From assembly GCA_015709695.1 (NCBI GenBank), contig CP054183.1, positions 992,001 to 1,056,000 on the forward strand: DNA of 64,000 nucleotides, given 5' to 3'. A program made the position numbers and the translations under genes. Source of the stretch: Gammaproteobacteria bacterium (GTDB taxonomy: Bacteria > Pseudomonadota > Gammaproteobacteria > Steroidobacterales > GCA-2729495). Of the stretch, positions 1 through 9,055 are shown piece after piece (the first letter of the stretch is position 1; every line of letters starts with the position of its first letter). The notes beneath the pieces were generated by a model, which saw only the letters and a program-made list of their open reading frames with translations, did no database searches and was not told where the DNA came from.

Positions 1-792
1 GCGATTCTCGAAAAGGGCGCCGAATGGCTAGCAGAACTGGATGCTGCTGAGGTCGAACGTTCGTGGGATCGCCCCTCTGAACGGTGGGGAAGTATTTCCG
101 GGTGGGATGAATTCAGAAAGTCACTTTCCAATCTTGTCCTGAAAGGGTCGCGATCCGAGCCAAGTTTGGTCGATGATTACCTGAGACGCCTCATGACGTC
201 CAAGCGACTTCTCAGGGACCGGTTTGAGGATATCGTTGCCTTTTCGCCAAGGCTCTCCCAGACACATTCGAAGCTCCTTGTCGACTTTGCGCTCGCGTAT
301 CTTAAACAGGAGTTGCCGGATGATCGGCTTAAGCGAGAGCGAGAAGAGGCCGCCAGAAATGCGGAACGCCGGCGACAGGTGCTCGCAAAGCCGGAAGCTG
401 AGAGAACTCGCCTTGAGCAACTCATGGCTGATGCGCCCTCGCCACTCATCGGCGGTGGAATCTCACATTTCGAGCGGGAAGAACTCTGTGTTGATCGCGA
501 TTTTCGCAATTTCTGGCCGGAATCTCCCCTGCGCGAGCCATTCCATTCGTTATTCCAGTCGTCACCGGACGAAGCCCTGCGGCTGTTACGGGAACTGTGC
601 AATCACGCCATGACGGCGTGGCGGCAGTTCCACCGATATCGGGACTACTACGAAGAAGCCGTGCGTACGCCCCTGCCACTGGAGATTGCCTTCCCGTGGG
701 GGACGCAGAAGTTCTGGGGAACGGATCGGATCTACCAGTGGTTTCGGGCCTTTTCAGCTCCCAAACCACTGGGCTGTGGCTTCATGTGTTGA
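1..792 (+). pseudogene. 3' part of an unrecognised gene, disrupted at its C-terminus by the IS21 element
   Basis: The reading frame is open from the first base of the window, so the true start lies upstream. About 263 codons are visible and end with a TGA at 790-792 that lies inside the left end of the IS element, so the last two codons and the stop are IS sequence. The visible part is soluble and charged, with a likely helical stretch (about residues 100-150, rich in Lys, Arg and Glu) and an aromatic C-terminal segment containing PWGTQKFWG and IYQWFRAF. I do not recognise the family. The gene ends abruptly at the IS boundary and no continuation is found right of the element. It has lower GC than the chromosomal core and belongs to the accessory region. 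A large conflict-system protein is conceivable from context, but that is speculation. Confidence 0.6.
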
Positions 793-848
793 TTTGCGCC
801 TAAAACTGACCCACCTATAGCGGGTATTTGCATCCAATTTTGACCCAC
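787..848. repeat. Left terminal inverted repeat region of the IS21 element
   Basis: Starts TGTTGATTTGCGCC and contains TGACCCA at 807-813 and again at 841-847, with ATTTGCATC between. The same modules appear inverted at the right end, where the spacing between the two TGACCC copies is shorter by about ten bases. Confidence 0.85.
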
Positions 849-891
849 GTGTACACCCCCGTCCTGCTCTTTGGGGCAGGAGATTTCTGGA

Positions 892-2418
892 GTGATCGAC
901 GTGGCGATATTGAGTGTTATACGACGCTGGCACCTGCGCGAAGGGGTGCCGATCCGCGAGATTGCCCGGCGCACCAAGCTGTCCCGGAACACGATCCGCA
1001 AGTACCTGGCCAGTGGCGTGGTGGAGCCGGTCTACCCGCAGCGCAAGAGTCCGATCAAGCTCGACCCGTTTGCCGACATGCTCGCCTGCTGGCTGGAGCG
1101 AGAGGCCGGACGCGGCCGCAAGCAGCGGCGCAACTGGCGCCAGCTGCACAACGATCTGCGGGCGTTGGGCTACGAGGGTTCCTATGACCGCGTAGCGGCC
1201 TTTTCCCGCGCATGGCAGCGCCAGCTTCAAGAAGCCGAGCGCACCAGCCGCGGCACGTTCGTGCCGCTGAGATTCGCGCCTGGAGAGGCGTTCCAGTTCG
1301 ACTGGAGCGAGGACTGGGCGGTGATCGGCGGGGAACGCTGCAAGTTCTCCGTGGCGCAGTTCAAGCTGTGCCACAGCCGCGCTTTCCTGCTGCGGGCCTA
1401 TCCACAGCAGAGCCACGAGATGCTCTTCGACGCCCATAATCACGCCTTCGCTGTCTTTGGCGGCGTACCCCGGCGCGGCATCTACGACAACATGAAGACC
1501 GCGGTGGACAAGATCGGACGCGGCAAGGAGCGCATCGTCAACGTGCGCTTCCGGGCCATGGCCAGTCACTTCCTGTTCGAGACCGACTTCTGTAACCCGG
1601 CCGCCGGATGGGAGAAGGGCCAGATCGAGAAGAACGTGCAGGATGCGCGACCGCGCATCTGGCACGAGGTGCCCCGGTTCCCGGATCTGCCGGCGCTCAA
1701 TGACTGGCTGCAGCGACGCTGCATCGGCCTGTGGAGCCAGATCCAGCACCCGGAACATCCGCAACGCACCGTGGCCCAGGTGCTGGCCGAGGAGCAGCCT
1801 CACCTGATGCCTGCGCCTTCGCCGTTCGATGGCTATGTCGAGGACACCAAGCGCGTCTCGCCCACGTGCCTGATCACCTTCGAGCGCAACCGCTACAGCG
1901 TCCCGGCCTCGTTCGCCAACCGGCCGGTGAGCGTGCGCGCCTATGCCGATCGGCTCGTCGTGGTGGCCGAAGGGCAGATCATCGCCGAGCATGCGCGCCT
2001 GTTTGCGCGCGACCACAGCAGTAACGCAGCTCGCACCGTCTACGACTGGCGCCATTATCTGGCCGTCATCCAGCGCAAGCCCGGCGCGCTGCGCAATGGC
2101 GCCCCCTTTGCCACGTTCCCGGAAGGACTGCGGCGCCTGCAGTCGGTGCTGCTCAAGCGCCCGGGCGGAGATCGGGAGATGGTGGAGATCCTCGCCCTGG
2201 TGCTGCGCCATGACGAGCAGGCGGTGCTGTGCGCCGTCGAGCTGGCGCTGGACTCCGGCACCGTCTCCAAGCCGCACATCCTGAACCTGCTGAGTCGGCT
2301 GCTGGCCGCCGATGTGCCAGCGCCCATCCACACCCCGGCGCGCCTGGCCCTGCAACAGGAACCCGAAGCCAACGTGGACCGCTACGATCACCTGCTGGGA
2401 GATCGCCATGTCGGCTGA
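892..2418 (+). CDS. istA: IS21 family transposase IstA
   Basis: DDE-type transposase of about 508 residues, normal for IstA. An N-terminal helix-turn-helix reads [19 protein letters not shown]. The catalytic core carries the acidic residues in [20 protein letters not shown] and GQIEKNVQ (D, D, E). A C-terminal Mu-type beta-barrel region (about residues 310-400) contains the NRYSVPASF motif usual in this family. GTG at 892 is preferred because a GGCAGGAG Shine-Dalgarno sits about ten bases upstream; a TTG at 871 in the same frame would add seven residues but lacks a good ribosome site. It overlaps istB by 11 bases, the usual arrangement for translational coupling in IS21. The gene appears intact, so the element may still be active. 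Confidence 0.95.
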
Positions 2419-3184
2419 CGCCCTGGCCCTTTCTCTCAAGTCCCTGAAGCTCTACGGCATGGCCCATGCGGTGGATGACCTGTCTGCCCAGCAGGGTCCG
2501 GCGTTCACCCAGGCTCGGCCGATCCTGGAAGACCTGATCAAGGCCGAGGTCGCCGAGCGTGAAGTGCGCTCGGTCAACTATCAGCTCAAGGGTGCGCGGT
2601 TCCCGGCGCACCGTGATCTGGCCGGGTTCCGGTTCGAGCACAGTGGCGTGGATGCCGCGCTGGTCAAGACACTGCACGAGTGCCAGTTCCTGCGCAGCGC
2701 CCACAACGTCGTGCTCGTCGGCGGACCCGGCACCGGCAAAACACATCTGGCCACCGCCATAGGCATCCAGGCCGTCGTGCATCATCGCCTGCGGGTGCGG
2801 TTCTTCTCCACCGTCGATCTGGTCAACCAGCTCGAGGCCGAGAAGGCCTTCAACAAGGCCGGGTATCTTGCCAAGGGCCTTGCCAACACCGACATGGTCA
2901 TCCTGGACGAACTCGGCTACCTGCCGTTCTCCCAGGCCGGAGGAGCACTGCTGTTCCACCTGCTCAGCAAGCTCTACGAGCGAACCAGCGTGCTGGTGAC
3001 CACCAACCTGAGCTTCTCAGAGTGGGCCAGCGTGTTCGGGGACGCGAAGATGACCACGGCCCTGCTGGACCGGTTCACCCATCACTGTCACATCGTCGAG
3101 ACCGGCAATGACAGCTACCGGTTCAGGAACAGCTCAACCCAACCCCGCAAGGAGCGACGAACCACCAAATCCACCCCTGCCTGA
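2408..3184 (+). CDS. istB: IS21 family helper ATPase IstB
   Basis: AAA+ ATPase of about 258 residues that helps IstA with target selection in IS21 transposition. Walker A reads GGPGTGKT at residues 105-112, Walker B is MVILDELGY, and the sensor region TTNLSFSEW is present. ATG 2408 overlaps the end of istA by 11 bases, the typical coupling for the family; a longer in-frame reading upstream to 2312 lies wholly inside istA and is not needed. The C-terminus ends normally and no frameshift is visible. Confidence 0.95.
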
Positions 3185-3206
3185 GACATACTGACAACGA
3201 CCAAGG

Positions 3207-3257
3207 CGGGTCAACTTTAGATGCAAATCCCGGGTCACCTTTAAGCGCAAAACAACA
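3207..3257. repeat. Right terminal inverted repeat region of the IS21 element
   Basis: Contains GGGTCA at 3208-3213 and 3232-3237 and ends GCGCAAAACAACA at 3257. The reverse complement matches the left end closely (TGTTG-TTTGCGC, then GGG-ATTTGCATC). Confidence 0.85.
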
Positions 3258-3951
3258 CTGACCCATTCGGAGAAAGCACGCCTTCTGGATTTTGGCTGGG
3301 GCCGTTCTTGTATTTCACCGAGTAGGTGATTTCGGGGTGTTGCGCGTAGTCAGGCACTTCCAAAGTGACCACCTGCGCATAGGTGATGGTTTCCTTCGTC
3401 CATCCGTGCGGCGTGCCTTCGACGACGATAGTGACCCCAATGGACTGGGTGTGGAACCGTTCTACGCCCGCGGGTTGCAGGTTCGCGTACTCGCTCTCGC
3501 CAATCAGCTTGTCTTGGCTTCCGGGACGGTCCTGGTATACGGCATGCGTACTTGGATCGACGCCGGCAAGCTTCTGCAGCACGCCGCCGAGAATTCGTTC
3601 TGCACCCCATTCGAAATTGCGGTCGTCCAGAATGAAGCGGAAGGATCGGTCGCTCCGGAACACGACGAACTTCTCCACGCCAGCGGTGCGCAGGTCAGTG
3701 GTCTCGTCCGGTCGCAGTCCTTCCAGCAGCCCGTTTGCCAGTATCTGGAATACCAGGTGCTCAGCAATCGGAAGCGCGCCGGCGGCTTCCAGCAGCTGAA
3801 GGCCGGTCGGGACGGGGTCGGCGATGACGACGGGTCGGAAATGCAAGCGCTCGTCGCCGAGCTGGATGCGGTAGGGGCCATGTTCGCGAGGAGTGCGACC
3901 GGCTCGCAGTGCCTCGCCGAGGTCTTCAACCGAAGTATCCGAATTGGTCAT
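3241..3951 (-). pseudogene. Multi-ubiquitin domain protein, 3' end removed by the IS21 element
   Basis: The protein (236 codons as read) looks like the bacterial multi-ubiquitin family (Pfam Multiubiquitin): tandem beta-grasp ubiquitin-like units. Unit 1 starts at YRIQLGDERLHF (about residue 27), unit 2 at RSFRFILDDRNFEWG (about residue 98) and unit 3 at VTIVVEGTPHGWTK (about residue 170). In known loci such proteins sit beside E1-like, E2-like and JAB peptidase genes and are thought to be processed and conjugated. Here the third unit breaks off after SPNGSV. The last residues and the TAA at 3241-3243 come from the IS end (bases up to 3257), and the final beta-strand and tail are missing. ATG 3951 has AGGTGA a few bases upstream. 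No E1, E2 or JAB gene is in the window. The family call is from recognised sequence style, not a search. Confidence 0.78.
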
Positions 3952-3989
3952 GGGTCACCTGATTGCTGGAGGGCCCTAGAGCCCATGAA

Positions 3990-4028
3990 TACATATAATA
4001 TAGCTAAATAATAGCTAGTCAATAGCCC
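3990..4028. promoter_or_regulatory. Phased repeat array, probable operator for the RHH protein
   Basis: The 6-bp palindrome TAGCTA occurs at 4001-4006 and 4012-4017, exactly 11 bases apart. Weaker copies fall on the same phase at 3990 (TACATA) and 4023 (TAGCCC). One-turn spacing of short palindromes is the usual binding pattern of ribbon-helix-helix repressors. The array lies between the divergent multi-ubiquitin gene and the RHH operon, in a very AT-rich stretch. Confidence 0.5.
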
Positions 4029-4044
4029 TGAAGAATTTAAATAC

Positions 4045-4061
4045 TGATTGAAATTCAATCA
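4045..4061. promoter_or_regulatory. Perfect 17-bp palindrome overlapping the -35 box
   Basis: TGATTGAA-A-TTCAATCA has two perfect 8-base arms around one central base and overlaps the -35 hexamer at 4048-4053. A bound regulator would block the promoter. The XRE protein of the operon is the natural candidate, the RHH protein the alternative; the sequence alone does not tell them apart. Confidence 0.6.
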
Positions 4062-4077
4062 TCTAGTCGAGTATAAG
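4048..4077 (+). promoter_or_regulatory. Sigma70-type promoter of the RHH-GNAT-XRE-ImmA operon
   Basis: TTGAAA at 4048-4053 and TATAAG at 4072-4077 are separated by 18 bases. Transcription would start near 4084, at or next to the ATG at 4085, so the message may be leaderless, or translation may begin at the in-frame ATG 4103. Confidence 0.55.
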
Positions 4078-4084
4078 AATTCTC

Positions 4085-4297
4085 ATGAATGCAAAACGGA
4101 CCATGACCCTGAATCTGACGGATGCAGAAATGCGGGTGCTTGAGGAGCTCTGTGAGAAGAAGGATCTGAGCAAGACCGCTGTACTTCGGCAGGCTTTGCG
4201 TCTCTATCAGGTCTTTGAGGCTCGAATCGAGAAGGGCGAAAAGCTCTTTTTTGAAGATGACAAGACCAAGGAAAAGGCTGAGGTCATGATGTTGTGA
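4085..4297 (+). CDS. Ribbon-helix-helix (CopG-type) regulator, probable antitoxin
   Basis: Seventy residues. The N-terminal strand MTLNLTDAEMRVLEELC followed by LSKTAVLRQALRLYQ has the strand-helix-helix layout of RHH DNA-binding proteins, with the C-terminal tail (about residues 48-70, acidic and lysine-rich) typical of an antitoxin that wraps its toxin. Two starts are possible: ATG 4085, which would be almost at the predicted transcription start, and ATG 4103, which would remove six residues. Its stop codon overlaps the GTG start of the next gene (GTGA), so the two are translationally coupled. It probably represses its own promoter through the repeat array at 3990-4028. RHH plus GNAT is a known type II toxin-antitoxin layout; the role here is inferred from that. 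Confidence 0.8.
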   Translation: MNAKRTMTLNLTDAEMRVLEELCEKKDLSKTAVLRQALRLYQVFEARIEKGEKLFFEDDKTKEKAEVMML

Positions 4298-4935
4298 GCG
4301 TCATCGTCTCAACGGCATTTCTGTTCAATACGGAGGCCGGCAAGCCGGAAAGAGCTGAGCTATGGGATGCCATCACGGAACAGCAGCTCGCGGACTGGGA
4401 AGGCGAGTGGGTCCCTGAGATGCTCAAGGCCCTGCAGCGACTGCACCGGGCGGGCGTGCCGCGAAAGCTCTGGCCGCAGAGCCGCCACTGGGACTGGCGC
4501 CAGAAGACCGCTTCTCTCCAGGGGTTGCTGGCGCATCCGGGGTTCAGTGTCGTCTGCGGCGGCGTAACTCAGGGCATGATGATTCTGGATACCACGACCA
4601 AGCGATGCCGCGTCGAAGCGCATCGGGGGAAGAACTTGGTCTATGTGCGGTATTTGGAGAACGCGCCGTGGAACCAGAAGGAGCTGTTCGATCCGCCGCG
4701 CTACCGTGGCGTAGGGTCAATCCTGGTTCGGGCGGCTATAGAGTTGAGTCGCAGCGAAGGTTTCCGGGGGCGGATTGGGCTGCACGCCTTGCCACAGTCG
4801 AATGCCTTCTATGCGAAGACGTGCGCGATGAGTGATTTTGGTGTGGATACAGATCCGAACTACAGCCCGATGCGTTATTTCGAAATGACACCTGAACAAG
4901 CGGAGGCTTTTATTGCGAAAGGAATACAGCCATGA
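4294..4935 (+). CDS. GNAT-family acetyltransferase, possible toxin of an RHH/GNAT pair
   Basis: Protein of 213 residues. The C-terminal half has the GNAT acetyl-CoA loop RYRGVGSILVRAAIEL (about residues 136-151), followed by a strand (RIGLHAL) and an SNAFYAKTC segment typical of motif B. The N-terminal half (about 120 residues, with several Trp) is not a standard part of small TacT/AtaT-type toxins, which are about 160-180 residues, so this may be a distinct type or may not be a toxin. GTG 4294 overlaps the RHH stop by four bases, and the stop overlaps the next ATG (ATGA), so the gene is locked between two regulators. Substrate unknown; aminoacyl-tRNA would be expected for toxin homologues. 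Confidence 0.75.
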   Translation: MSVIVSTAFLFNTEAGKPERAELWDAITEQQLADWEGEWVPEMLKALQRLHRAGVPRKLWPQSRHWDWRQKTASLQGLLAHPGFSVVCGGVTQGMMILDTTTKRCRVEAHRGKNLVYVRYLENAPWNQKELFDPPRYRGVGSILVRAAIELSRSEGFRGRIGLHALPQSNAFYAKTCAMSDFGVDTDPNYSPMRYFEMTPEQAEAFIAKGIQP

Positions 4936-5411
4936 AAATTGATCTCACAGAAGAGTGGTGCATGAACATGGCACAGCTCGAAGGAGATGCGGATATCGGT
5001 GCGGGCTTTCTCGCCATCGATCCCGTATTTGACGGAGAGCTGATGGAACAACGCGCACACGACGAACCTGCGGTTGCGTTTGGCCGTTTTGTGCGTTTAA
5101 TGCGGCGCAGCCGCGGCTTGACCATTGAAAAGCTAGCCAATGATGCCGATGTAGATATTGGCGAGCTGGTGGGTATTGAGGATGATCCGCATTTCAAGCC
5201 GGAAGTCCGTACGGTTTATCAGTTGTCGATGATTTTCGATGTGCAACGATCCAACCTGTTGCAAATCGCCGGACTTACCCAGCCCAAGAATGAACGGATT
5301 TATGAAGAAGCTGTGCGCTTTGCCGCGCGCTCAGAGCCCGTTGTGGCTCTGACTCGGGAGGAGCGAGAGGCGCTTGAAACCTTTGTCGCGGTGTTGAGCG
5401 AAAAGAAGTGA
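4932..5411 (+). CDS. XRE-family helix-turn-helix regulator
   Basis: Protein of 159 residues. A Cro/CI-type HTH lies at about residues 47-110: VAFGRFVRLMRRSRGLTIEK, then a VDIGELVGIE recognition region and a TVYQLSMIFDV closing helix. It is preceded by an acidic extension of about 45 residues and followed by a helical tail (LTREEREALETFVAVL). ATG 4932 overlaps the GNAT stop by four bases. An ImmA/IrrE peptidase gene follows after 16 bases; XRE and ImmA genes commonly form repressor/anti-repressor pairs in mobile elements, where the peptidase cleaves the repressor. It is a candidate for binding the palindrome at 4045-4061. Confidence 0.82.
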   Translation: MKIDLTEEWCMNMAQLEGDADIGAGFLAIDPVFDGELMEQRAHDEPAVAFGRFVRLMRRSRGLTIEKLANDADVDIGELVGIEDDPHFKPEVRTVYQLSMIFDVQRSNLLQIAGLTQPKNERIYEEAVRFAARSEPVVALTREEREALETFVAVLSEKK

Positions 5412-5427
5412 ACGGAGCGAAAGTCTG

Positions 5428-6381
5428 TTGGCAAAGAATACTCGAATAACGCTGCGGACAGCCCGGGACATCGACGGTCGGATCGAACGCGTAATACGGG
5501 GGCTCGGAAATCCCGAGCCCCCATTGAGGCTCGAAGACGTCCGCGATCTACTGAAACTCGACAGGGAGTTCTATCGCGCCGATGACCCAACGCTTCTTCG
5601 CGAGGTTGTGTCGCGGATCCGGGTTGCAACAATTCAAGTCGCGCAGCGCCCCATGCTCTTGCTGGATGCGATCAAGAAATGGTCGCTCCAGGCGTTATAC
5701 GTACCAGACAGAAAGAGAATTCTTCTCGATGGCTCGCTTCCGGAGAAAAAGCATCGATGGAGCGAAGCTCATGAAGTGGGGCACAGTCTGATTCCCTGGC
5801 ATGACGATGTCATGCACGGAGACAACCGGCACACGCTATTGCCGCATTGCCAGGCTGAAATAGAAGCCGAGGCTAACTATGCCGCGGGGCGATTGCTCTT
5901 TCTCCGCGATCGCTTTGGCGAGGAGGCTAGATCCCTGCAACCTACCATTGAAACTATCCAGTCCCTGAACGGGAAATTTGGCAACACGATTTCGAGCACG
6001 CTATGGAGGTTTGTTGAGACGCTGGGCGAAAGTCAGCCAATGGTGGCGATGATCAGTGGCCATCCTCACATCACCCGTCGGCTTTCCGATTTTGATCCCT
6101 TTCACCCTTGTCGTCACTGCATCCAGTCGCCGGCTTTTGATACCCGATTTGGAAAAGTAGATGAGGTAACTCTTTTTCAAGCTGTGGAGAGGTACTGCAC
6201 CGCGAAGATGGGCGGACCTCTAGGGAGCGCAGAAGTTGTGCTGCAGGACGACAACGGTGATGCGCATGTGTTCTTGTTCGAGTCATTCTTTATTCGCTAC
6301 AAGCCGCCTGCAGTTGGAGAGGCGCTGACCTTGGGCATCTATCTACGGCCAGTTGCAAGTGTCATCGCACTGTCCGGCTAG
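5428..6381 (+). CDS. ImmA/IrrE-family metallopeptidase
   Basis: Protein of 317 residues starting with TTG. The zinc-binding HEVGH lies at residues 115-119 inside RWSEAHEVGHSLIPWH, and a downstream EIEAEANYAAGRLL (about 144-157) supplies the expected third ligand glutamate. This is the ImmA/IrrE (DUF955) signature. The N-terminal 100 residues and the C-terminal 150 residues are accessory; the latter carries HPCRHC at 227-231. ImmA-type proteases cut XRE repressors in response to a signal such as DNA damage, and the partner here would be the gene just upstream. Last gene of the operon that starts at 4085; no start better than TTG 5428 fits. Confidence 0.83.
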   Translation: MAKNTRITLRTARDIDGRIERVIRGLGNPEPPLRLEDVRDLLKLDREFYRADDPTLLREVVSRIRVATIQVAQRPMLLLDAIKKWSLQALYVPDRKRILLDGSLPEKKHRWSEAHEVGHSLIPWHDDVMHGDNRHTLLPHCQAEIEAEANYAAGRLLFLRDRFGEEARSLQPTIETIQSLNGKFGNTISSTLWRFVETLGESQPMVAMISGHPHITRRLSDFDPFHPCRHCIQSPAFDTRFGKVDEVTLFQAVERYCTAKMGGPLGSAEVVLQDDNGDAHVFLFESFFIRYKPPAVGEALTLGIYLRPVASVIALSG

Positions 6382-6669
6382 GTCTTGTCTTGCAGTAGCT
6401 GAAAGCTTGCACTAACCATTAAGGATGCTGTGGACAATGCGTCGTCGGTGGCGAATATTGAAGACACCGAAGCTAAAGACTGACGGAGGGTCTTTGGGCT
6501 AAAATGTAGCTGTCGCCGAGAGAAAGTTGCTGGCGGCGCGGGATGAAATGGAACTTGGTACTTCTTATGGTACTGATATTCCAGCAGACGGAAATGAGGT
6601 TGAGGATCAATAGCTTGCAGTCTGGTTAGAATCCCTCACTCCCGCCAGTCCACGAGGAGCGAACAGACG
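6382..6669. other. Gene-poor 288-bp junction between the accessory region and the chromosomal core
   Basis: No full gene is supported. A short open stretch ends at a TAG at 6610-6612 (about 35 codons, ending ADGNEVEDQ); it follows a stop and has no clear start, and may be a decayed gene end. Just after it comes the tRNA-like fragment at 6624-6647. Base composition rises sharply to the right of this point. Confidence 0.5.
6624..6647 (+). repeat. tRNA 3'-end-like sequence, probable attachment-site remnant
   Basis: GGTTAGAATCCCTCACTCCC followed by GCCA resembles the T-loop, T-stem and acceptor 3' half of a tRNA (closest to tRNA-Ser ends), including the terminal CCA. The 5' T-stem strand (TCTGG) does not pair properly and there is no upstream tRNA body, so this is not a gene. 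Integrative elements that target tRNA genes leave such 3' copies at one end, which fits its place at the border of the accessory region. Confidence 0.45.
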
Positions 6670-7704
6670 ATGAGCGATTCCGGGTCCTTCGACCCAGGCG
6701 CCGAGACGGCGCTTTTCCTGCAGGATCTCTACGCGAATGCGCTGCTGGTGCGCTGCCTGGTCACGGTGGCCGAGCAGGGCATCGCCGATCGCCTCGGGCC
6801 GGGCCCGAAGACCGCGGCGGAGCTGGCAGCGGGCGCGGGCCTGCACGAGGAGACGCTCTATCGCATGCTGCGCTTCCTCGCGCCCTTCGGTTTCTTCGCG
6901 GAAGACGAGGACCACCGCTTCCACCTGACGCCGCGCGGGGAGTTCCTGCGTGTCAACGTGCCCGGATCGGTGCGTGACCGCCTGCGCCGCCCCTGGCAGG
7001 ACCTGCTCTGGCGCAGCTACGAGCACCTGCCGGAGATGTTGCGCACCGGGGTGACCGCCTTCGACCAGGCGCATGGCCGCTCGTTCTTCGACTACCTGGC
7101 CTCGCACCCCGACATCAACACGATCTACGACCGCTCGATGGCCCGCCTGTCGCAGATCGAGAACCCGCTGATCGCGGCGAGCTATCCTTTCGGCGATTTC
7201 CCCTTTGTGGTGGACGTCGGTGGCGGGCAGGGCGGCCTGCTGGCCGCGGTGCTCGACCGCCATCCCGAGGTGCACGGGGTGCTCTACGACCAGCCGCAGG
7301 TGGTCGCTGCCCCGGAGCAGCTCGCTGCCGATCGCTATGCGGGCCGCTGGGAAGTGGTGGGCGGGGATTTCTTCCGCACCATCCCGCCCGGCGGCAACCT
7401 TTACGTGCTCAAGCGCATCATGCACGGCTGGGACGACGAGCATGCGCTGGCGGTGCTGCGCGGCTGCCGCGAGGCACTGCGCGACGGCGCGCGCATCCTC
7501 GTCATCGATGCGGTGATGAAACCGGGAAATGCCCCGGACCCGAACAAGTTCATGGACGTGAACATGATGGCGCTGACCGGCGGGCGCGAGCGGACCGAGG
7601 CGGAGTTCCGCCGCCTGTTCGAGGCGGCCGATCTGCGGCTGGTGCGCGTGCTGCCGCTGCCTGCGCCGGCGACGCTGTCGCTGCTCGAGGGCGTCGTTGC
7701 CTGA
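6670..7704 (+). CDS. SAM-dependent O-methyltransferase (hydroxyneurosporene/acetylserotonin OMT-like)
   Basis: Protein of 344 residues with the two-part layout of small-molecule O-methyltransferases. An N-terminal winged-helix dimerisation region reads GIADRLGPGPKTAAELAAG. The class I SAM fold has VVDVGGGQGGLL at about residues 180-191. The RIMHGWDDEHAL motif (about 249-260) contains the His that acts as catalytic base in this family. GAGGAGCG lies about nine bases before the ATG. It is the first core-like gene after the island border and looks monocistronic. The acceptor is likely a phenolic or hydroxyl group on a secondary metabolite, but cannot be named. Confidence 0.85.
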   Translation: MSDSGSFDPGAETALFLQDLYANALLVRCLVTVAEQGIADRLGPGPKTAAELAAGAGLHEETLYRMLRFLAPFGFFAEDEDHRFHLTPRGEFLRVNVPGSVRDRLRRPWQDLLWRSYEHLPEMLRTGVTAFDQAHGRSFFDYLASHPDINTIYDRSMARLSQIENPLIAASYPFGDFPFVVDVGGGQGGLLAAVLDRHPEVHGVLYDQPQVVAAPEQLAADRYAGRWEVVGGDFFRTIPPGGNLYVLKRIMHGWDDEHALAVLRGCREALRDGARILVIDAVMKPGNAPDPNKFMDVNMMALTGGRERTEAEFRRLFEAADLRLVRVLPLPAPATLSLLEGVVA

Positions 7705-7803
7705 CCTCGTGCCAGCCGGCCTGCCCCATGGCGCCGCGGCGCCGGTAGAATGTGCCGCCATGCGTGGAGAGCAGCAGCCGGGCAAGGGGGGAGGGCGCGC
7801 GCC

Positions 7804-8421
7804 ATGACCAACGACCAGCGCAGGAGCAAGCGCCGCCGCCTGCGGCGCCAGGCGGCCGTGCTGGTCTTCCTGATGATGGCCTTCGCGCTCGCCTGGTTCT
7901 TCGAGTCGCAGGCCACCACCACGGTGATCCTCACCCGCTACGCCGACATCGATCGCAGCCAGGGCGACAACCCCGGCCTGTCCGCGGCAGGCCAGGCGCG
8001 TGCCGAGGAACTCGCGCGCGTGCTCGGCGACGTGGACGTGGTGGCAGGCGTCGATGCCATATTCGCCAACCAGTACCGCAGCACCCAGGAGACGGCCGAG
8101 CCGCTGGCCCGCCGGCTGCACCTGAAGGTCCAGGTCACGGACGTCAAGGACATCGATGGCCTGCTCGACCACATCCTCAAGGAATGGAAGGGCAAGGTGG
8201 TGCTGGTGGTCACGCACACCGAGCCGCTGCCGTTGCTCATCCAGGAGCTGCACGGGAGCAAGAAGCTGCCGCCGATGGCCGCCGAGGAGTACGACAACCT
8301 CTATGTCGTCAGCATTCCCTGGTACGGCAAGGTCAAGACCCTGCGCCTGAAGTACGGCGTGCCCTACGTTGCGCCAGCCGGGACTCCCGCAGCGAACCCG
8401 CCAGCTGCCGGCGCTGGATGA
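7804..8421 (+). CDS. Membrane-anchored histidine-phosphatase-fold protein lacking the catalytic His
   Basis: Protein of 205 residues. A basic N-terminus (KRRRLRRQ) and one hydrophobic segment (about residues 17-35) suggest an inner-membrane anchor with the domain outside. The fold is that of the histidine phosphatase (phosphoglycerate mutase) superfamily: LSAAGQARAEELAR, FANQYRSTQETAEPLARR and VVTHTEPLP all match family positions. The strand that normally reads RHGE/RHAE reads TRYADID, so the His that becomes phosphorylated is Tyr (codon TAC). The second His is kept. The protein may therefore be a non-catalytic binder or use other chemistry. ATG 7804 is chosen over an upstream ATG at 7750 because it places the charged segment directly before the membrane span. 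It overlaps the convergent trmH by 89 bases. Confidence 0.75.
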   Translation: MTNDQRRSKRRRLRRQAAVLVFLMMAFALAWFFESQATTTVILTRYADIDRSQGDNPGLSAAGQARAEELARVLGDVDVVAGVDAIFANQYRSTQETAEPLARRLHLKVQVTDVKDIDGLLDHILKEWKGKVVLVVTHTEPLPLLIQELHGSKKLPPMAAEEYDNLYVVSIPWYGKVKTLRLKYGVPYVAPAGTPAANPPAAGAG

Positions 8422-9055
8422 AGCCCTCCGCGTCCAGCGCGGGGTAGGGCAGGCCACGGGCCTGGCAATGCCGGGCGGCCGCCGGGTAGCTCCACTCGAA
8501 AAGCAGCTCGCGGTAGGCCTGCCCGTCCAGTCGCGGCCTGGAGTACATGCCCGCCTCCTCGCGCTGGCGTGCCGCCTCGTAGAGGATCACCGCGGCGGCC
8601 ACCGAGACGTTCAGCGATTCCACCAGGCCGCGCATGGGCACGACGATGTGCGCATCGGCGAGCGCTGCGGCACGCGCGCTGACGCCGAGCCGCTCCGCGC
8701 CGAGCAGCACCGCGGTGGGGCGGGTGAAATCGCAGCGGCGGTAGTCGATGGCGGATTCCGAGAAATGTGCTGCAACTATCTGATATCCAAGGCTGTGTAA
8801 TTCGGAGGCAGCCTCGCCGAGATCCCGGTGGACACGGCTTTTCACCCACTTGCGGCTGCCTCCGGACACGCCCCGGTGGCGGCTCCATTCCCCGCCCGGC
8901 GACACGGCGTGCAGCTCGGCCACGCCCACGGCATCGCAGGTGCGCAGGATCGCGGAGATGTTGTGCGACTTGTGCACGTCCTCGCAGAGCACGGTGAGGT
9001 CCGGCTGCCTGCGGTCGAGCACGGCCCTGAGCCTGGCGAATCGTTCGGGTGTCAT
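8333..9055 (-). CDS. trmH: tRNA (guanosine(18)-2'-O)-methyltransferase TrmH
   Basis: SPOUT-fold methyltransferase of 240 residues that makes Gm18 in the D-loop of tRNAs. Diagnostic motifs are HNISAILRTCDAVGV (residues 31-45), AVLLGAERLGVS in the knot and MRGLVESLNVSVAAAVILYE, which holds the SAM-binding and catalytic surface. The C-terminal TrmH_C region follows, ending in a basic tail. The 3' end runs 89 bases into the convergent phosphatase-like gene. A tRNA-Arg gene starts 43 bases upstream on the other strand. Confidence 0.92.
   Translation of the reverse strand: MTPERFARLRAVLDRRQPDLTVLCEDVHKSHNISAILRTCDAVGVAELHAVSPGGEWSRHRGVSGGSRKWVKSRVHRDLGEAASELHSLGYQIVAAHFSESAIDYRRCDFTRPTAVLLGAERLGVSARAAALADAHIVVPMRGLVESLNVSVAAAVILYEAARQREEAGMYSRPRLDGQAYRELLFEWSYPAAARHCQARGLPYPALDAEGFIQRRQLAGSLRESRLAQRRARRTSGAGS

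Follow-up and report, generated by a model that had tools for sequence, protein, structure and literature searches.

A probable Bub operon remnant beside an intact RHH-GNAT-XRE-ImmA operon with a putative immune control role

Introduction

The locus described here raises two questions: what remains of a multi-ubiquitin gene that runs into the end of an insertion sequence, and what the operon facing it is for. It lies in a 64,000-nucleotide stretch of DNA, called the window below, from a Gammaproteobacteria bacterium (assembly GCA_015709695.1, contig CP054183.1; G000:C1:992001-1056000 in our numbering) whose genome is one contig of 3.1 Mb, scored 99.7% complete. According to the accessible parts of the sources, polyUbl operons (class 6e) were reported by Iyer in 2006 (PMC1779556), and XRE-COG2856 was reported in 2016 to stand beside PF14452 in 70% of cases (PMC4963859). 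CapW or CapH together with CapP is found in 219 of 544 Bub operons, and ssDNA activates the cleavage of CapH by CapP (PMC13373217). Other controllers are the pair CapK and CapS, a STAS/GHKL kinase and a STAS-wHTH repressor, while CapW is a WYL protein (PMC13373217). RHH-GNAT and XRE-COG2856 have been described as separate TA-like pairs (PMC2701414).

Results

The truncated multi-ubiquitin gene

The minus-strand ORF at 3241-3951 encodes 236 amino acids and matches one Pfam family, Multi_ubiq (PF14452), in three stretches (E 3.9e-43; 145.9 bits against a Pfam cut-off of 24.5). The three tandem ubiquitin-like units proposed for this strand by a sequence-only reading of the DNA are thereby borne out, as is their ubiquitin-like identity, for which that reading had suggested a Pfam HMM search. 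Solved multi-ubiquitin relatives found by sequence are 9cd2 (E 1.8e-37), 9d5b, 8u38 (BilA) and 9d59. The alignment to 9cd2 covers the window protein as far as its residue 226, and 9cd2 continues for 22 residues more, from which we estimate that about 17-20 C-terminal residues are gone. The same reading had placed the cut in the third unit, at the end of an IS21 element, and the match of that unit indeed stops at profile position 54 of 69. Because the right end of the element lies at 3257, native coding ends at 3258, and the final residues and the stop codon are IS sequence (Table 1).

Table 1. Features of the locus, in window coordinates
Feature	Position	Strand	Basis
STAND-like gene, 3' part (1028-aa gene starting left of the window)	1..786	+	PADLOC
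IS21-family element	787..3257	+	IstA ORF 871-2418, IstB ORF 2312-3184; terminal repeats present
Three-unit multi-ubiquitin (Bub-type) gene remnant	3258..3951	-	PF14452, PDB relatives; ORF 3241-3951, end codons IS-derived
Ubiquitin-like unit 3, cut short	3256..3435	-	PF14452 42.8 bits, profile 1-54 of 69
Ubiquitin-like unit 2	3448..3642	-	PF14452 50.5 bits
Ubiquitin-like unit 1	3655..3846	-	PF14452 59.3 bits
Predicted multi-ubiquitin promoter, TTGACT-16-TATTAT	3995..4022	-	1 match, 0.4 (sd 0.6) expected in shuffles
TAGCTA-N5-TAGCTA-N5-TAGC array, proposed RHH operator	4001..4026		Motif survey
RHH (CopG-type) DNA-binding protein, 70 aa	4085..4297	+	RHH_1 PF01402 25.2 bits, above cut-off
GNAT-like protein, 213 aa	4294..4935	+	Acetyltransf_1 18.6 bits, just below 20.7 cut-off
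XRE-type HTH protein, CapH-like	4932..5411	+	HTH_19 38.9 bits, above cut-off
ImmA/IrrE (M78) metallopeptidase, CapP-like, HEVGH present	5428..6381	+	PF06114 25.8 bits, above cut-off

The element has the ends TGTTGATTTGCGC (left) and GCGCAAAACAACA (right, at 3257), an IstB_IS21 match with an E-value of 4.2e-76, and rve and Mu-transpos_C_2 domains within IstA (Pfam). No matching flanks of a target-site duplication were seen by eye at the four full IS21 copies in the genome. Since the flanks of the element are unlike each other, a simple insertion does not explain the break, and a deletion or rearrangement next to the IS21 element is its likely cause. The genome holds three further full copies and one partial copy; two of these full copies are 100% and one 99% identical (rounded), which suggests recent IS21 activity in this genome. 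One copy, at G000:C1:603343-607466, adjoins an oppositely oriented partial copy, and its left end abuts the interior of that copy. The other IS21 copies were also considered as a place where the lost partner genes might be found, and were rejected: by eye, the sequence adjacent to their ends (three full copies and one partial) contains no reciprocal pair or duplication.

The partner genes were searched for across the genome. With the Methylomagnum E1 as the single query, one match was obtained (32% over about 116 aa), a ThiF-family ORF that is MoeB-like and has a rhodanese-like tail by eye; apart from this ORF, the one-relative query found no E1 gene. DUF6527, likewise searched with one relative, gave no match in the genome, an empty answer that counts for little alone, and a second Multi_ubiq gene was sought with only matches at E > 0.3. 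At the locus, the survey model found no E2-like gene or domain beside the multi-ubiquitin gene, and E2 is likewise absent by that model in L010 and L051, which are of similar length, and in the three-hit loci L149-L151 and L153. The sequence-only claim that partner genes are missing is right in so far as these queries gave no E1 gene other than the MoeB-like ORF, and no DUF6527 gene either.

The same reading had expected E1-like, E2-like and JAB genes at intact loci. This expectation was right for E1 and, in some loci, for an E2-type domain, such as the Prok-E2_E domain in the multi-ubiquitin operon of the Methylomagnum plasmid L012. It was wrong for JAB, in whose place DUF6527 is usual in the nearest relatives. 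E1 and DUF6527 are annotated in six of seven intact loci, the seventh being annotated only as hypothetical, and a JAB gene is annotated in none of the seven; L030 carries JAB beside Multi_ubiq. We infer from these relatives that E1 and DUF6527 genes formerly stood at this locus.

The window's own genome is the sole one with a match to the multi-ubiquitin gene among the 99 genomes searched (its own and relatives), and no relative was found in the phage records and viral contigs searched. Judged from its sequence, ORF 3241-3951 really is what remains of a Bub operon, and it is dead.

On the other side of the IS21 element, the 1028-aa STAND-like gene (L177 3704-6787) ends at window position 786, and its coding frame enters the left end of the element. 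PADLOC matches of its protein are DUF626_VIII (3.9e-20), PDC-M54A (5.1e-15) and Avs4 (7.1e-10). Further to the left, outside the window, an OLD-TOPRIM AAA nuclease and a UvrD helicase lie side by side on the minus strand (L009 11293-14774; G000 about 983.8-987.3 kb), a pair which we take to be Gabija-like. Taken with the STAND-like gene and the Bub remnant, the pair gives the region the look of a defence island. G+C is 52-68% in window positions 1-6600 (52-60% outside the IS) and 67-72% in 6600-9000, which is consistent with the IS/cassette stretch being acquired DNA. A string resembling a tRNA 3' end lies at 6620-6645, where ARAGORN predicts no tRNA. As the string is unique in the genome even when one mismatch is allowed, we make no claim of an attachment site.

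The divergent operon

The sequence-only reading had described the divergent neighbour as an RHH/GNAT/XRE/ImmA operon, and this was confirmed, with RHH, XRE and ImmA above their Pfam cut-offs and GNAT just below (Table 1). Our own RHH HMM, which includes the window sequence, gives the window RHH 141 bits. The GNAT start codon overlaps the RHH stop. Across 55 aligned GNAT sequences, G141 is invariant and G139 at least 90% conserved, and W66, W68 and A124-P125-W126 are invariant (HWxW and APW). The GNAT profile matches no PDB sequence at E up to 10, and GNAT has no relative in the phage records and viral contigs.

Among PDB entries, XRE matches the CapH-type HTH 7t5u (E 4.4e-4, profile A5). Since SinR entries score somewhat better, this match is not specific. 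ImmA matches PADLOC capP at E 1.6e-13, IrrE 3dte at E 4.8e-4 and CapP 7t5t at E 0.0056. CapP and CapH are thus weak PDB matches of ImmA and XRE, with other entries better. H115, E116 and H119 of ImmA are invariant across 18 aligned sequences, and HExxH is present in 23 of 23 ImmA relatives from 80 loci that pass a score, start and length filter. The predicted RHH-GNAT-XRE-ImmA operon, hereafter the cassette, is intact.

Intact relatives and survey of cassette loci

Matches to the window multi-ubiquitin were found in 154 plasmid records, and nine of the 154 were inspected. On the Methylomagnum plasmid L012, genes for RHH, GNAT, XRE and ImmA are divergent from genes for ThiF, DUF6527 and a multi-ubiquitin that has a Prok-E2_E part, and the protein in GNAT position is 69% identical to the window GNAT. 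The Azonexus locus L051 combines a 238-aa multi-ubiquitin with E1 and DUF6527 and carries the same cassette too, with the ImmA match running up to the end of the contig. The cassette faces Bub operons in plasmid loci L012, L019, L020 and L024-L028 and in genome G401. An intact locus with the four-gene operon alongside, which the sequence-only reading had proposed to look for, was therefore found several times (e.g., L012, L051 and G401). Among 398 genomes drawn evenly from the phylum, PF14452 occurs in 15 and the GNAT profile in four, the window's own genome included in both; the two occur together in this genome and in G401, at one locus each and with the cassette divergent.

A plasmid search with the window GNAT returned 51 records, of which L012 and 17 more were taken up, plus one from an ImmA search. 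A genome scan with a 15-sequence GNAT alignment returned 231 relatives, of which the best 80 were kept. The survey, made with our own HMMs, comprises 97 loci, duplicates included: the window, 16 plasmid loci and these 80 genome loci. L034-L036 were excluded: the survey models find GNAT but no RHH in L034 and L035, and XRE-ImmA with a Bub-like operon on one strand in L036. Both samples favour close relatives of the query.

RHH is present in 96 of the 97 loci. The divergent operon is of the Bub/Ubl type in 51, the window included, and CBASS in 25; six have neither but a Bub operon convergent downstream, and 15 have neither. Once identical intergenic regions are removed, 83 distinct loci remain (45 Bub/Ubl, 20 CBASS, 14 neither and 4 Bub convergent). 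Both E1 and DUF6527 are found in 39 of the 45 distinct Bub/Ubl loci, the exceptions being the window, L030, L033, L037, L083 and L090; matches in L033 are to E1-N/ThiF, Metal_CEHH and, just under the cut-off, JAB. All four CBASS genes are present in 18 of the 20 distinct CBASS loci, and in the one locus checked (L021) they are cyclase, HORMA, TRIP13 and SAVED endonuclease, i.e., type III. The pairing of cassette and Bub operon is conserved and non-random.

Other neighbours were also recorded. The divergent operon of L047 is BilABCD, and a CAP12-type TIR gene lies about 0.7 kb from the cassette in L052. Genes for NurA, a weakly HerA-like ATPase and an SbcD-like protein face the cassette in L103 (5669-9689), possibly an undescribed immune operon. 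In L116, a two-gene stretch on the divergent side of the cassette (7112-9054) contains a below-cut-off metallo-beta-lactamase (MBL) match, about 0.6 kb from the cassette. Four of the 15 loci with neither system face other candidate immune genes, and the remaining ones have ordinary or unrecognised genes or contig ends; L053 and L105 face an apparent ketol-acid reductoisomerase (by eye). Next after the cassette on a Marinibacterium plasmid comes an annotated Cas9 gene (L032 10313-13315).

In a GNAT tree of 95 rows made by a quick method, from which L088 and L105 were left off (low GNAT scores), all 25 CBASS rows fall on one branch with an SH-aLRT of 97. The CBASS loci form one GNAT clade, and their exchange is therefore one event and not 25. 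Nine neighbour labels require eight changes on the tree, the minimum, with 10 rows unlabelled. Exchange of the cassette between immune systems is supported by these results.

The TAGCTA array

Upstream of RHH in nearly all loci, in the stretch separating the cassette from the divergent operon, TAGCTA repeats recur with an 11-bp period. An array within two mismatches of TAGCTA-N5-TAGCTA was found in 75 of the 83 distinct loci, compared with 0.9% in plain shuffles, and was not found at this tolerance in the other eight, L033 and L116 among them. The strict form, TRGCYA-N5-TRGCYA, is present in 61 of the 83, with 0.00024 per locus in dinucleotide shuffles, and occurs once in the remaining 1.43 Mb of locus sequence. 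By class, it is found in 37 of 45 Bub/Ubl loci, 20 of 20 CBASS loci and 4 of 18 others. The consensus TAGCTA-N5-TAGCTA-KTCAA is common to Bub and CBASS loci, its K and T being weaker in Bub.

The strict array is absent from the whole locus in all 19 Multi_ubiq loci without RHH-GNAT, a control that leaves out L155 and L157 (no multi-ubiquitin model match). By the survey models L065 has RHH and GNAT without ImmA or XRE, and an array at one mismatch, while L062 has RHH and GNAT, no ImmA, an XRE match of only 21 bits, and a strict array. Since the array is kept in these two loci and absent in strict form without RHH-GNAT, it travels with RHH-GNAT. RHH is thus a likelier binder of the array than XRE. 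A search by eye for an operator of XRE found none.

In 57 Bub and CBASS loci with a strict array, the distance from the start of the array to the conserved MTLNL codon of RHH is 94-141 bp, the array lying in front of that codon on the side of the divergent operon. The sole promoter-like match in this region of the window reads into the multi-ubiquitin gene, with the -10 at 3995-4000 and the -35 at 4017-4022; as a single match compares with 0.4 expected by chance, it is weak alone. The spacer of this promoter match is taken up by array repeats 1 and 2 (4001-4017), and the third overlies the -35. Only in 10 of the 61 strict-array loci does a consensus sigma-70 promoter, by our criterion, lie over the array (1.2% in controls), which speaks against the generality of this arrangement. 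Use of the array as a genome-wide site was tried and rejected: the longer pattern TRGCYA-N5-TRGCYA-NTCAA has nine matches in nine of 398 genomes and its reversed control 11 in 10, and it misses the array of G401 itself. Because the longer pattern is no commoner than its control, it is informative only beside the cassette.

Discussion

We consider it probable that this locus is a dead Bub operon beside an intact, orphaned control cassette consisting of RHH with its array, a CapH-CapP-like pair and GNAT. The gene identities, the truncation, the failure to find a partner gene and the conservation of cassette and array are computed; binding of RHH to the array, the resulting repression, damage sensing and the role of GNAT are what we infer from them. 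In intact relatives, the cassette is transcribed away from the immune operon, and RHH dimers would bind the tandem TAGCTA array over the promoter of that operon and keep it off. XRE and ImmA may act as a CapH/CapP-type pair which senses DNA damage through repressor cleavage. Most likely GNAT, produced together with RHH, would act on the repressor complex, either acetylating it or binding to RHH; RHH or XRE may be its target for modification, or else it may be a toxin that RHH keeps in check. The IS21-associated loss would have taken away the modifier's tail as well as, judging by relatives, the E1 and DUF6527 genes, in which case the modifier could not be activated. Several results count against this picture: the promoter over the array in only 10 of 61 loci and the weak promoter match in the window, the eight distinct loci lacking the array, the failure to see an XRE operator, the weak CapP and CapH matches, the GNAT match under its Pfam cut-off and with no PDB relative, the 15 loci with neither Bub nor CBASS, and the single CBASS clade.

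More tentatively, and with somewhat less than even confidence, we propose that RHH-GNAT-XRE-ImmA is an undescribed two-layer immune control cassette, in which a CapH/CapP damage sensor joins an RHH repressor that acts on the TAGCTA array and is tuned by an acetyltransferase of its own, that it has moved among Bub, type III CBASS, Bil and TIR systems, and that the neighbours in L103 and L116 are candidate new immune operons. The sequence-only reading knew the pairing from no described locus. This has to be corrected for XRE-ImmA beside Bub, which is already published, and may stand for the full cassette with RHH-GNAT. By title and abstract, none of the papers listed in searches for the combination describes it. 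As far as the sources are accessible, what may be new here is RHH-GNAT and the array together with XRE-ImmA.

The alternative that survives best, unlikely in our judgement, is that RHH-GNAT is an ordinary type II TA pair, RHH the antitoxin and GNAT the toxin, whose sole role alongside XRE-ImmA is to stabilise the immune locus, the array being its autoregulation site. The gene arrangement fits this, RHH coming first and GNAT second with start over stop, and by the survey models L065 has RHH-GNAT without the rest. RHH-GNAT operons were described as a TA-like class over-represented on plasmids, although the authors there favoured resistance over true TA (PMC2701414), and XRE-COG2856 beside multiubiquitin was interpreted as a stabilising TA pair (PMC4963859), according to the accessible parts of both papers. 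However, an autoregulation site agrees poorly with an array 94-141 bp from the RHH MTLNL codon, on the divergent side, and in the window over the divergent promoter match. The divergent genes are moreover Bub/Ubl or CBASS in 76 of the 97 loci, and the lack of any PDB match for the GNAT profile leaves it without a tie to a solved GNAT toxin.

We find it improbable that XRE binds the array as the repressor, in plain CapH/CapP control with RHH-GNAT as a passenger. Short palindromes repeated at 11 bp suit RHH dimers. The array moreover persists with RHH-GNAT in L065 and L062, which by the survey models have no ImmA and an absent or weak XRE, and is not found in L010, annotated with HTH and ImmA, or in L036, where the models give XRE and ImmA; both have no RHH-GNAT by model. 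In favour of XRE are its standard HTH and the precedent of CapH, a DNA-binding repressor cut by CapP (PMC13373217). Least probable of all is that the truncated multi-ubiquitin is still useful, for instance as an unconjugated protein of three units: two units are complete, a promoter-like sequence persists and the IS stop closes the frame, but the C-terminus that E1 activation requires has been lost, and the genome searches gave neither E1 nor DUF6527.

The value of the finding lies in the intact neighbour of the remnant, a control cassette that, like its putative operator, is conserved and stands beside several immune systems. If the proposed reading is true, Bub, CBASS and TIR immune operons, whose chemistry differs (ubiquitin-like conjugation, cyclic-nucleotide signalling and TIR), would share one mobile switch with a readable operator, and the cassette would be a marker for finding further immune operons and include an acetyltransferase with a possible regulatory target. 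It would also permit a direct test of Bub operon induction. According to the accessible part of the report (PMC13373217), Bub has not been shown to protect against phage, and the cassette would make the function of Bub and the time at which it is switched on testable.

Comparison with known systems

The cassette resembles CapK+CapS and CapW in that these are interchangeable controllers beside Bub and CBASS, in the case of CapK+CapS also beside Bil (PMC13373217); they differ in not being RHH, GNAT, XRE or ImmA proteins. With Bub operons (PF14452, E1 and DUF6527), the window shares the Multi_ubiq units and XRE-ImmA alongside, whereas its C-terminus is cut, E1 and DUF6527 were not found, and the control operon has RHH-GNAT in addition. 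A further comparison is with RHH-GNAT type II TA-like pairs of the TacAT/AtaRT type. The window agrees with them in gene order, in the overlap and in having RHH and GNAT, but its GNAT has 213 aa with HWxW and APW, no PDB match, and a place mostly beside immune operons. CapH+CapP is alike in pairing an HTH protein with an ImmA/IrrE protease encoded after it, the two genes being divergent from an immune operon, with 7t5u and 7t5t among the few PDB matches. In contrast to CapH+CapP, RHH and GNAT precede this pair in the cassette, and the array goes with RHH-GNAT, not with XRE-ImmA.
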